Below are positions 43,045 to 45,924 of a stretch of DNA of 64,000 bases, piece by piece. The notes beneath the pieces are model-generated. The model saw only the letters and a program-made list of their open reading frames with translations. It did not search any database and was not told the origin of the DNA. Source of the DNA: Methanocalculus alkaliphilus (lineage in GTDB: Archaea; Halobacteriota; Methanomicrobia; Methanomicrobiales; Methanocorpusculaceae); NCBI RefSeq assembly GCF_024170505.1, contig NZ_JALJYG010000003.1, positions 62,001 to 126,000 of the forward strand. Direction: 5' to 3'. Position 1 is the stretch's first letter. Each line of letters begins with the position of its first letter. A program made the position numbers and the translations under genes.

Positions 43045-43617
43045 ATGTCGATATCGATCAGATGCCCTGGGTGTGAAGAGGAGACCGACCACGATATCGT
43101 TCGTGATGGATCACCCGCCACGGTACGCTGCTGTGAGTGTGATCACATACACCGCATCACCATTACAATCCCTGCCATACGTGAGATCCCTGCCATCGTC
43201 AGTAGCGAGGCTGAGTCAAAGAAAGGAGTCATAGAGCTTACAGATGATGAGCTGGTGAACGTCGGGGACACATTTGTCGCTGATGTCGGAGACGATATCT
43301 TTGGTGTCGAGGTGACCGGAATCGAGATCGGCCCTGCAAGGCGGAGGAGGGCTTCTGTAAAGGATATCACCTGCCTCTGGACGAGGGTGGTCGATACGGT
43401 CATTATCCGGGCATCACTCCATAAAGGGGCGACAACGATACCACTCTACGAAGCCGTGGATGGAGAGACTGCCTATACCATCGGGGAGATCACCGATGTC
43501 GGAGGACGTCAGTTCCGTGTAACCCGGATAAAAATGAGGGATGGACAGGTTATCAGAAAGCCGGGCTCCTATGCCGAGGCACGTTTTATCAAACGAATCT
43601 ATGGTGAACGGTCATGA
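43045..43617 (+). CDS. HVO_0476-family zinc-finger protein
   Basis: A 190-residue protein. The N-terminus is a zinc ribbon: CPGCEEETDHDIVR followed by CCECDHIHRI. A beta-rich region follows (about 65-190: LTDDELVNVGDTFVADVGDD ... AYTIGEITDVGGRQFRVTRIK). The family is conserved in euryarchaea and has no known function. It ends only 18 nt before the hairpin of the IsrB-bearing element, so the insertion lies immediately downstream of its stop. Confidence 0.85.
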   Translation: MSISIRCPGCEEETDHDIVRDGSPATVRCCECDHIHRITITIPAIREIPAIVSSEAESKKGVIELTDDELVNVGDTFVADVGDDIFGVEVTGIEIGPARRRRASVKDITCLWTRVVDTVIIRASLHKGATTIPLYEAVDGETAYTIGEITDVGGRQFRVTRIKMRDGQVIRKPGSYAEARFIKRIYGERS

Positions 43618-43634
43618 TCGAATCAGGCAGGAAA

Positions 43635-43654
43635 CTCACGACTTTAGTCGTGAG
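43635..43654. repeat. Right-end hairpin of the element
   Basis: CTCACGAC-TTTA-GTCGTGAG is a perfect 8-bp stem with a 4-nt loop. It lies at the 3' end of the isrB-like gene and encodes its last codons and stop (LSRLKS, stop). The loop TTTA is shared with the left-end hairpin while the stem sequence differs, as expected for TnpA recognition structures. Confidence 0.8.
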
Positions 43655-44691
43655 AGGAATGCCGATTGCCTGGTGTCGGTATAGTGTGTTGTTCTCCATG
43701 CTATTCTGGTCAGGATTGTGCAGTCTGTTGGTTTAGCAGATTGCGTTAATCGTTTTCCTGTTCTGAAATGGTGTAATGAGAGTCGTTCTTTGATTGAACC
43801 TCCTATATAGGATAAACCGTGTTTGAAATGGTTGACTAATGTTCCACGGATTAGGTTCAGAGAGATCGTTCCTCCATAAGGTTTTCTGATCCCTCCTGTT
43901 TCGGGTTGGAGTCGGTGGAGTTGACGACGATGGAACCTGATCGGAGTCCAATAAAATAAACCTCGTTCTGTTGGTTGTTTGGCTCCGGAAACGTCTGCCG
44001 CCATAACCCAGGCATCTACTGCATGAGAGGAGAAGACAGGTTTCTTCTTCTGAGAGGTCTTTCTGAGGTTGAATCGATCCCGGAGGTCTTTGGTTTCATA
44101 TCCGGTACGAAGATGGAGATCGAGGTTGAGAGATCGGATTGTACGGTAAAACCATTGTTTACCCACCTCTAAAGGAGAGAAGTTGGAGTTCCATTGTTTG
44201 CAGTTCTTTTTGGTTACTGCGGCAATATCTTCGACAGCAACATCTGTCAGAGGGATGATCTTTTGGAGCTGTGTTACAATCCGGAGTTTGGCGTTCCATC
44301 TGGCGCGAGTACTCGGCGGGATGGAGGATCTGTTTTTGAGACGGTTTCTGAATCGTGCAGGACGCCTCCAACAATGACGGTATCTTCTGGATCTTCGCAT
44401 GGTTCGACGGGTTTCAACCGCCTTTTCGACATGTTTTGGTGTTTCGGACATGCCGTTTAGAACGGTTTCTTGTGTACCAACAATAGACCATCCTTCAAAG
44501 GAACTACCCGGATCAATACCGATGACGAGAGGTTGGTTGTCTGGATTGACCTGATAGGTGAGGATGATGCAGAATATACCGAGTTTGTTCCAATAGGGTC
44601 TGGCTTTACCTTGTTTCAGTAAGAGCCGGGCTCTTGTCGGTGTTGTCGGCATAAGAGGTGTTTTGTTAGTGTCTAATACAGGGATTCGCAT
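43636..44691 (-). CDS. isrB: IsrB-like RNA-guided nickase (PLMP/RRXRR domain, split RuvC, no HNH)
   Basis: A 351-residue protein. Residues 1-46 are the PLMP/RRXRR domain (VLDTNKTPLMPTTPTRARLLL, then GKARPYW). RuvC-I is IGIDPGSS with Asp60; an Arg-rich bridge helix covers about 94-121 (RRTMRRSRRYR); RuvC-II is VAVEDIAAV with Glu154; RuvC-III is SSHAVDAW with His223 and Asp226. Only 68 residues lie between Glu154 and His223, too few for an HNH domain. This separates IsrB from IscB and Cas9. Characterised IsrB nicks the non-target strand, guided by an omega RNA. GGAGGTAA precedes the ATG. The C-terminus (about 100 residues, basic) would hold the TAM- and RNA-binding part. The RuvC residues look intact. 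Confidence 0.85.
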   Translation of the reverse strand: MRIPVLDTNKTPLMPTTPTRARLLLKQGKARPYWNKLGIFCIILTYQVNPDNQPLVIGIDPGSSFEGWSIVGTQETVLNGMSETPKHVEKAVETRRTMRRSRRYRHCWRRPARFRNRLKNRSSIPPSTRARWNAKLRIVTQLQKIIPLTDVAVEDIAAVTKKNCKQWNSNFSPLEVGKQWFYRTIRSLNLDLHLRTGYETKDLRDRFNLRKTSQKKKPVFSSHAVDAWVMAADVSGAKQPTERGLFYWTPIRFHRRQLHRLQPETGGIRKPYGGTISLNLIRGTLVNHFKHGLSYIGGSIKERLSLHHFRTGKRLTQSAKPTDCTILTRIAWRTTHYTDTRQSAFLSRLKS

Positions 44692-44926
44692 GAGGGATTA
44701 CCTCCATCCGGTTAAACCGGAGTTACATGTCTCTTCGGAGTGGCAAGACAGGCTTAGTATCTGAAAAGATACGTCGGATTCGGCGTGTCCGGAAGAGGGC
44801 AGAACTAGAGAAACATTCTGCCGTTCTTGTAGCCCGTAATGCTGCTGCATATCTGAATATGCCTCCTAGTCTAACTGTTTAGTCTCGCGTAGCCGTTTGC
44901 AAGCCCATGACTTTAGTCATGGGTGG
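44692..44926 (-). ncRNA. Putative omega RNA (HEARO-like) of the IsrB-like nuclease
   Basis: The 222 nt between the isrB start and the thioredoxin stop hold no gene, but on the minus strand form several strong hairpins: the left-end stem (44904-44923), GCATAT/ATATGC (44847-44862), GGCAGAA/TTCTGCC (44798-44822), GTATCT/AGATAC (44757-44772) and CCGGTT/AACCGG (44708-44720). In IscB and IsrB loci the omega RNA is encoded in exactly this place, 5' of the gene, with the guide taken from the DNA outside the left end. No covariance search was possible; the call rests on position, size and predicted pairing. Confidence 0.65.
44904..44923. repeat. Left-end hairpin of the element
   Basis: CCCATGAC-TTTA-GTCATGGG, a perfect 8-bp stem with the same TTTA loop as the other end. 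The stop codon of the thioredoxin-like gene (TAA, 44913-44915) lies in this loop region. Confidence 0.8.
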
Positions 44927-45188
44927 TTGACAGATATTTTTTAACAAGTTCCTCGAACTCTTCGCGATGAAGGACACCCTCAACCTTTTCGACGACGGCC
45001 CCATCTGAAATGATGACCGTCGTCGGTGTCACCCTGAGTTGGTACTCACTAATATATTCAGGGTTTGATTTTGCATTAATCGATTCGATGGGGACTGATA
45101 ACGCCTCTTCAATCTCTGTATTGATCGGTTCCTGTTCAAGACACCCCATACACCCATCCTGGTAAAAGGAGAGAATCTTCACAACCAT
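44913..45188 (-). CDS. Thioredoxin-fold protein whose 3' end runs into the mobile element
   Basis: A 91-residue thioredoxin-like protein. The redox motif is CMGC (Cys13, Cys16) and the cis-Pro loop is RVTPTTVI; the order strand-CxxC-helix-strand-helix-strand fits the fold. The ATG at 45188 gives the normal size. The last codons (STTHD) and the TAA stop lie in the left end of the IS element, so the original C-terminus was probably slightly different. It lies 40 nt after the FKBP-like gene, with which it may be co-transcribed, suggesting a protein-folding or redox unit. Confidence 0.8.
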   Translation of the reverse strand: MVVKILSFYQDGCMGCLEQEPINTEIEEALSVPIESINAKSNPEYISEYQLRVTPTTVIISDGAVVEKVEGVLHREEFEELVKKYLSTTHD

Positions 45189-45228
45189 GATCGTGATTCT
45201 TCGTGGTGAAGATGAAAAAAGTATTGGT

Positions 45229-45924
45229 TTATGATACCGCTCTGACAGAGTGGATCGTGACAACGGCATGTGAATAGCCATACCTGAGCGTGATCGTATC
45301 ATCGGTCATGGCCATCACATAGGCAAACCGTGTCTTTACATCAGGCTCAACGCCATCAAGTGCAATCGTTGGAGAGTCGGCAAATCCGAGCGGAACCAGT
45401 TCACCGATCTGTACCGTCTCAATGTCTCCGCCTATTTCTTTAAACTGGTCGAAGGTCATCTCCCTGGCAAGCGGGGAATCGGGATCCTCAAAAGTGAAGG
45501 GGACGGTGATCCGGTCACGTTCACGATGTCCGATGACTGAATCGGCTATCGCCTTAAATTCTGTCCTGAAGAGTGCAAACGGAGAGATCCCAGCATAGCG
45601 ATGCGGAATAGCGATGGTATCATCTGCCGGAGCATACCCTGCAGTCACCTGGATCGGCCCGGAGAGGTAGACAAAAATATTATCCCTCTCTGCATCTGCC
45701 ATAACCTGATCGGATGTGGTCAGAACAGGTATTCCATCATCATTGTATAGTGTATAATCGATAACAACGCCATCGCCCGGCTGGATAGCACGAAGCCCGC
45801 CAATCCATCCGGTCCCAAGGAGAGAGAGCGCCATCATTGCAGCAAAAAGAACAGCGATGGATATCGCTCCAATCTTCGTCCAGTTGACAGGCTCTGCCTT
45901 CTTTTTCTTCTTCTGCTGTGCCAT
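45229..45924 (-). CDS. Membrane-anchored FKBP-type peptidyl-prolyl isomerase-like protein
   Basis: A 231-residue protein. A Lys-rich N-terminus (AQQKKKKKAEPVNW) precedes one membrane helix (about residues 21-41), placing the rest outside the cell. The extracellular part begins like archaeal FKBPs (IQPGDGVVIDYTLYNDDGIPVLTTSD) and continues with an IF-like insert and RYGYSHAVVTIHSVRAV. Key aromatic residues of the FKBP active site are not all evident, so isomerase activity is uncertain. The ATG at 45924 is preferred over the frame nine codons longer. Confidence 0.6.
   Translation of the reverse strand: MAQQKKKKKAEPVNWTKIGAISIAVLFAAMMALSLLGTGWIGGLRAIQPGDGVVIDYTLYNDDGIPVLTTSDQVMADAERDNIFVYLSGPIQVTAGYAPADDTIAIPHRYAGISPFALFRTEFKAIADSVIGHRERDRITVPFTFEDPDSPLAREMTFDQFKEIGGDIETVQIGELVPLGFADSPTIALDGVEPDVKTRFAYVMAMTDDTITLRYGYSHAVVTIHSVRAVS

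Follow-up and report, generated by a model that had tools for sequence, protein, structure and literature searches.

The window, by which we mean the whole 64,000-nt stretch of Methanocalculus alkaliphilus DNA that was analyzed, carries an IsrB element of 1316 bp (43616–44931), with its isrB gene on the minus strand, lodged between two convergent host genes. One of them encodes a CPxCG zinc-finger protein (43045–43617, plus strand; PF19769, 1.8e-50) and the other a thioredoxin-like protein (44913–45302, minus strand; PF00085, 4.1e-08), and the insertion point is the place where the stop codons of these two genes overlap. The zinc-finger gene still has a stop codon despite the insertion; the stop of the thioredoxin-like gene was moved and is now at 44913, by which its product gained the residues STTHD, the frame of the empty site ending in KKYL and a stop. 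The right end of the element bears the hairpin CTCACGACTAAAGTCGTGAG (43635–43654, minus strand), which includes the isrB stop and recurs in the other copies and in solo right ends. Just beyond this end stands the tetranucleotide ATGA (43612–43615, minus strand), the TAM, which is present at the junction of every empty site of the window locus. As a whole, this is a complete IsrB element (ISC-type, IS200/IS605 superfamily) in an archaeon of the Methanomicrobiales.

The ends given above come from precise empty sites and from the second of the two full copies in the genome (G000:C4), which is 95% identical across the same stretch. A third copy resides at another place in M. chunghsingensis (G003), so that there are three reciprocal insertion polymorphisms with respect to this species, each copy being absent from the orthologous place of the sister genome. 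The flanks of every copy were joined, with ATGA retained, and aligned to the orthologous places in sister genomes, and each of the three empty sites turned out to be the left flank plus ATGA, with zero bases duplicated or lost. The window site has a gapless match to the empty site in six congeners (G001, G002, G003, G004, G005, and G007), with ATGA throughout. At the C4 site, the empty orthologue in G003 aligns without any base added or missing at the junction (more distant genomes differ in length there and were used as context only), and the site of the M. chunghsingensis copy has empty orthologues in G000, G002, and G006, no junction base being gained or lost. Since the joined flanks with ATGA equal the empty sites, the element is delimited to 43616–44931 and has no target duplication. 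As TGA occurs only at 2.4% of positions, its presence at all defined junctions is not a matter of chance. The absence of a target-site duplication, the subterminal hairpins and the fixed flanking tetranucleotide are the insertion features of the IS200/IS605 type. Two solo right ends with the hairpin were also observed in the same genome (L006 and L007, on C9 and C2), followed by ATGA or GTGA, their left ends not being seen.

The isrB gene (43636–44691, minus strand) is preceded by a Shine-Dalgarno-like GGAGG in the sequence (44701–44705, minus strand). Its product of 351 aa comprises a PLMP, the three RuvC motifs I–III (D60, E154, H223, and D226) and a TAM-interacting domain with R314 and Q317, and has no HNH; this composition and a size of about 350 aa are characteristic of the IsrB class. 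The product matches RRXRR of Pfam (1e-42) and only the first half of guided_IscB of NCBIfam, as is to be expected of a protein without HNH. Its best PDB match is the IsrB of Desulfovirgula thermocuniculi, DtIsrB (8dmb, 2.6e-50), and a Foldseek comparison of the predicted model (mean pLDDT 78) with DtIsrB gave E 4e-27, TM 0.71/0.75 and 32% identity in the fold alignment. The four RuvC residues are invariant across 23 relatives. In a profile alignment GKRLTQ, to which R314 and Q317 belong, is placed against GKRIGQ of DtIsrB, and the spacing of the two residues fits that of R323 and Q326 of DtIsrB (residue numbering in the fused PDB chain is inferred), the pair that recognizes G3 and A4 in its NTGA TAM (PMC9581776). 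The dN/dS values of 0.12–0.16 among the three Methanocalculus copies mean that IsrB is under purifying selection. By analogy with DtIsrB, the Methanocalculus protein should be an RNA-guided nickase of the non-target strand, of the kind ancestral to Cas9.

Directly upstream of the isrB ORF, as in the IsrB class in general, an omega RNA is encoded. The gap between isrB and the next gene, in which no protein is called, had been given as 222 nt in an earlier sequence-only reading and is in fact 221 nt long (44691 to 44913). The strong minus-strand structure and the covariance match that this reading had anticipated were both found. The minus strand of the gap folds at −76.3 kcal/mol, against −60.4 ± 4.8 for dinucleotide shuffles (z −3.3), 0 of the 200 shuffles folding as well, and the HEARO model of Rfam (RF02033) gives a clear match at 44723–44931 on the minus strand (63.9 bits, E 6.6e-12), spanning model positions 1–211 of 211. 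However, the score is below the Rfam gathering cutoff of 83; the match is visible at the E-value setting only, and the Rfam scan of the whole window at the gathering threshold returned zero matches. By Rfam's own rule, the scaffold is a divergent relative of HEARO and not a member. A third HEARO match in the genome, of 15 bits, was weak and was taken as chance. The scaffold starts at 44931, inside the thioredoxin-like ORF, whose final codons it overlaps. As had also been foreseen, the RNA core is kept in related copies and the flanks are wholly different.

The covariation set consisted of 14 archaeal RNAs, two from the own genome, one from M. chunghsingensis and the rest of Methanoculleus type (G134, G140, and L022); the test was limited to archaea because, among nine scanned IsrB loci, the archaeal L022 was the only one matched to HEARO by Rfam at E 1e-4. 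With the structure predicted by RNAalifold on this alignment, supplemented with two pseudoknots, 96.4% of the cells pair, compared with 34–46% for slid partners, although a structure derived from the same alignment is favoured over its slid versions. Both sides are changed in 22 of the 71 pairs, and a consensus secondary structure is thus kept by covariation. In the left-end hairpin CCCATGACTAAAGTCATGGG (44904–44923, minus strand), which is the first hairpin of the RNA, both partners of six of the eight pairs vary among relatives, and all five pairs of the hairpin at alignment columns 177–193 show compensatory changes; such changes in these two hairpins are direct evidence for the predicted structure. 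The nexus pseudoknot would be formed by the UUUCUC loop (44808–44813, minus strand) and its partner GAGACA (44728–44733, minus strand). In it, a single compensatory pair distinguishes Methanocalculus from Methanoculleus, this two-sided change being most simply one event. The sides of the adaptor pseudoknot, GGC (44892–44894) and GCC (44782–44784), both on the minus strand, are invariant in 14 of 14 RNAs and hence neutral as evidence. As we read PMC9581776, the predicted layout of the scaffold corresponds to group B1 of that paper.

The last hairpin of the RNA borders the Shine-Dalgarno sequence of isrB, and one could suppose that this structured leader serves only as a 5′ UTR controlling isrB translation and provides no guide. 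We regard this as very unlikely. The scaffold is capable of the pseudoknots and is laid out like the solved DtIsrB RNA, and the geometry of guide and TAM is seen at three empty sites. Moreover, a cis-acting leader would not explain the derivatives found in Methanoculleus (G140), two of which (L011 and L015; 403 and 414 bp) share one isrB deletion, keep the RNA and the right end, and occupy different sites with guides of their own. L146 in the same genome is probably a third omega-RNA-only derivative of this kind, of about 400 bp; for IscB, omega RNAs that stand alone are already on record (noted in PMC9581776). Two further loci of this genome, L014 and L017, share about 400 bp of the left flank at ~98% identity and have different right flanks, for which strain mixture, recombination between copies or misassembly are possible reasons. 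In M. alkaliphilus, a 46-bp derivative (L008, 1491–1536, on G000:C22) consists of the left-end hairpin joined to the right end and is followed by GTGA; G002 was rejected as a clean empty site for it, 21 nt upstream being missing there too.

The Y1 transposase TnpA was found neither in the element nor elsewhere in its own genome (G000), and the window copy may be immobile now for this reason. Elsewhere, 19 Y1 transposase matches are present in G140 and one partial match in M. chunghsingensis (L134, on G003:C14; 58.7 bits), which is possibly the remnant of a mobilizing TnpA. The missing transposase, the HEARO score under the Rfam cutoff and the presence of just two full copies would agree with an inactive relic, a former guided nickase that is now decaying, but the isrB frame is open, all the catalytic residues are kept, dN/dS is low, the RNA pairs are maintained and the insertions are polymorphic among sister species. 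We consider such decay improbable.

In the IsrB class, the guide is the DNA beyond the RNA end of the element and the TAM is at the opposite end, and this arrangement was observed at three empty sites. In the window, the putative guide is the 20-nt segment GAACTTGTTAAAAAATATCT (44932–44951, minus strand), its position and length being set by analogy with DtIsrB. It belongs to the 3′ end of the thioredoxin-like gene and equals the target in the empty site. The sequence-only reading had rightly looked for the guide outside the left end, in the 3′ end of this gene, but it started from 44927, and positions 44927–44931 (GTCAA) are part of the element. The guide occurs once in its own genome, with up to three mismatches allowed. 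This genomic copy is followed by GTCA, and the empty site gives ATGA instead. ATGA at the junction fits, by analogy, the NTGA that is the TAM of the solved Desulfovirgula IsrB (PMC9581776). Because GTCA after the guide template is not NTGA, the occupied locus should not be targetable, and only the empty site should be; of the two targets once considered for the guide, the host gene and the site before insertion, the latter stands, with its ATGA junction in six congeners, and the former, as now occupied, does not. As the comparison with sister species shows, the guide is copied from the DNA adjacent to the element and is an exact match to the site before insertion.

The position of the guide within a host gene, and commonly within the ribosome-binding region of a host gene in bacterial relatives, raises the question of whether the element was domesticated and its guide now regulates the neighbouring gene. 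We give this hardly any credence: there is no TAM beside the guide at the occupied locus and no second match of the guide, the three copies are at three unrelated loci, and the RuvC residues, which a domesticated DNA binder might lose, are intact.

In our opinion, it is highly probable that the locus is a complete guided-nickase element, having an RNA with a host-derived guide, the empty site as the target, and retention by nicking. It could operate as follows. Host transcription of the co-directional thioredoxin-like gene should run on into the element, and the resulting RNA should contain about 20 nt of the host flank (the guide) in its 5′ part and then the HEARO scaffold. IsrB with this RNA would seek DNA that matches the guide and has the TAM, ATGA, directly after the match. 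The guide template of the occupied allele has GTCA at this place, and the element would spare itself; upon excision, or in a chromosome copy that was never occupied, the flanks would form the guide sequence plus ATGA, i.e., the exact target, a geometry seen at three sites. IsrB should then nick the non-target strand of the empty site 8–11 nt upstream of the TAM, the distance at which DtIsrB nicks (PMC9581776), and the nick may favour recombination with an occupied copy, which would put the element back, as proposed in the donor-joint model, for which TnpB is the precedent (PMC8612924). Movement as such would require TnpA acting in trans.

The Methanocalculus element belongs to a known class, IsrB, seen here with its natural target. 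With DtIsrB (8dmb, PMC9581776) it shares the domain order without HNH, the RuvC residues, the R-x-x-Q TAM readers, a TAM of the NTGA type and, in the omega RNA, the layout, the possibility of both pseudoknot pairings and the guide at the 5′ end. It differs in the archaeal host, in the proteins, which are 32% identical in the fold alignment, the Methanocalculus IsrB being known here from sequence, and in the shorter scaffold (209 nt in the HEARO match and 240 nt up to isrB, versus 262 nt). IscB systems such as OgeuIscB (7xht) have the same PLMP, RuvC, bridge helix, 5′ guide and HEARO-type RNA; in contrast to the Methanocalculus IsrB, they possess HNH and cut both strands. TnpB of the IS200/IS605 element ISDra2 (PMC8612924) also has a flank-derived guide, a TAM that is the insertion site and a donor joint as the target, but its guide is at the 3′ end of the RNA, the protein is of Cas12 type and the cut is double-stranded.

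The three Methanocalculus copies differ in where they lie: the window copy is at a stop, another is at the start of an rnhA-like gene, and the remaining one is at an ATGA in which a stop and a start overlap. Placement was surveyed in 54 loci, mostly of Poribacteria, for which both ends could be parsed. ATGA comes directly after the right end in 50 of them and GTGA in 4; in the bacteria the ends were taken from a pattern ([AG]TGA after the right end) instead of from empty sites, and the TAM of Poribacteria likewise rests on alignment position. In 37 of the 54 loci this ATG or GTG is the start of an ORF of 80 aa or more, and 23 of those 37 also have a Shine-Dalgarno-like motif at the right distance in the left flank (43% versus 3.2% of control sites). 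Among the non-disrupting sites, 20 of 41 lie between a co-directional host gene's Shine-Dalgarno sequence and its start codon, against 8.6% expected from positions at which no called gene would be broken (p 2e-11); in all these counts the gene calls are simple ORFs, the null has loci in common with the sample, and copies from one phylum are non-independent. Where no ORF follows, the Shine-Dalgarno motif is not enriched (1/17), which indicates that start sites are favoured and not the motif itself. It may be, with a chance that we put slightly short of even, that IsrB elements in general insert after the Shine-Dalgarno sequence and ahead of the start codon in co-directional host genes, the ATG of the ATGA TAM serving as this start codon, the host promoter transcribing guide and RNA, and the guide being the ribosome-binding region. 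No report of such placement was found in the open-access papers searched, an earlier notice in Altae-Tran 2021 or Kapitonov 2016 being possible.

The element provides a methanogen IsrB for which sister species reveal the guide, the TAM, both ends and the natural empty targets to the exact base, and the benefit of the nickase to its element becomes testable with real sequences. If the start-codon placement holds, it would help to explain how the RNA comes to be transcribed although its guide is external to the element, and IsrB elements would, so to speak, make their living from captured host leaders.
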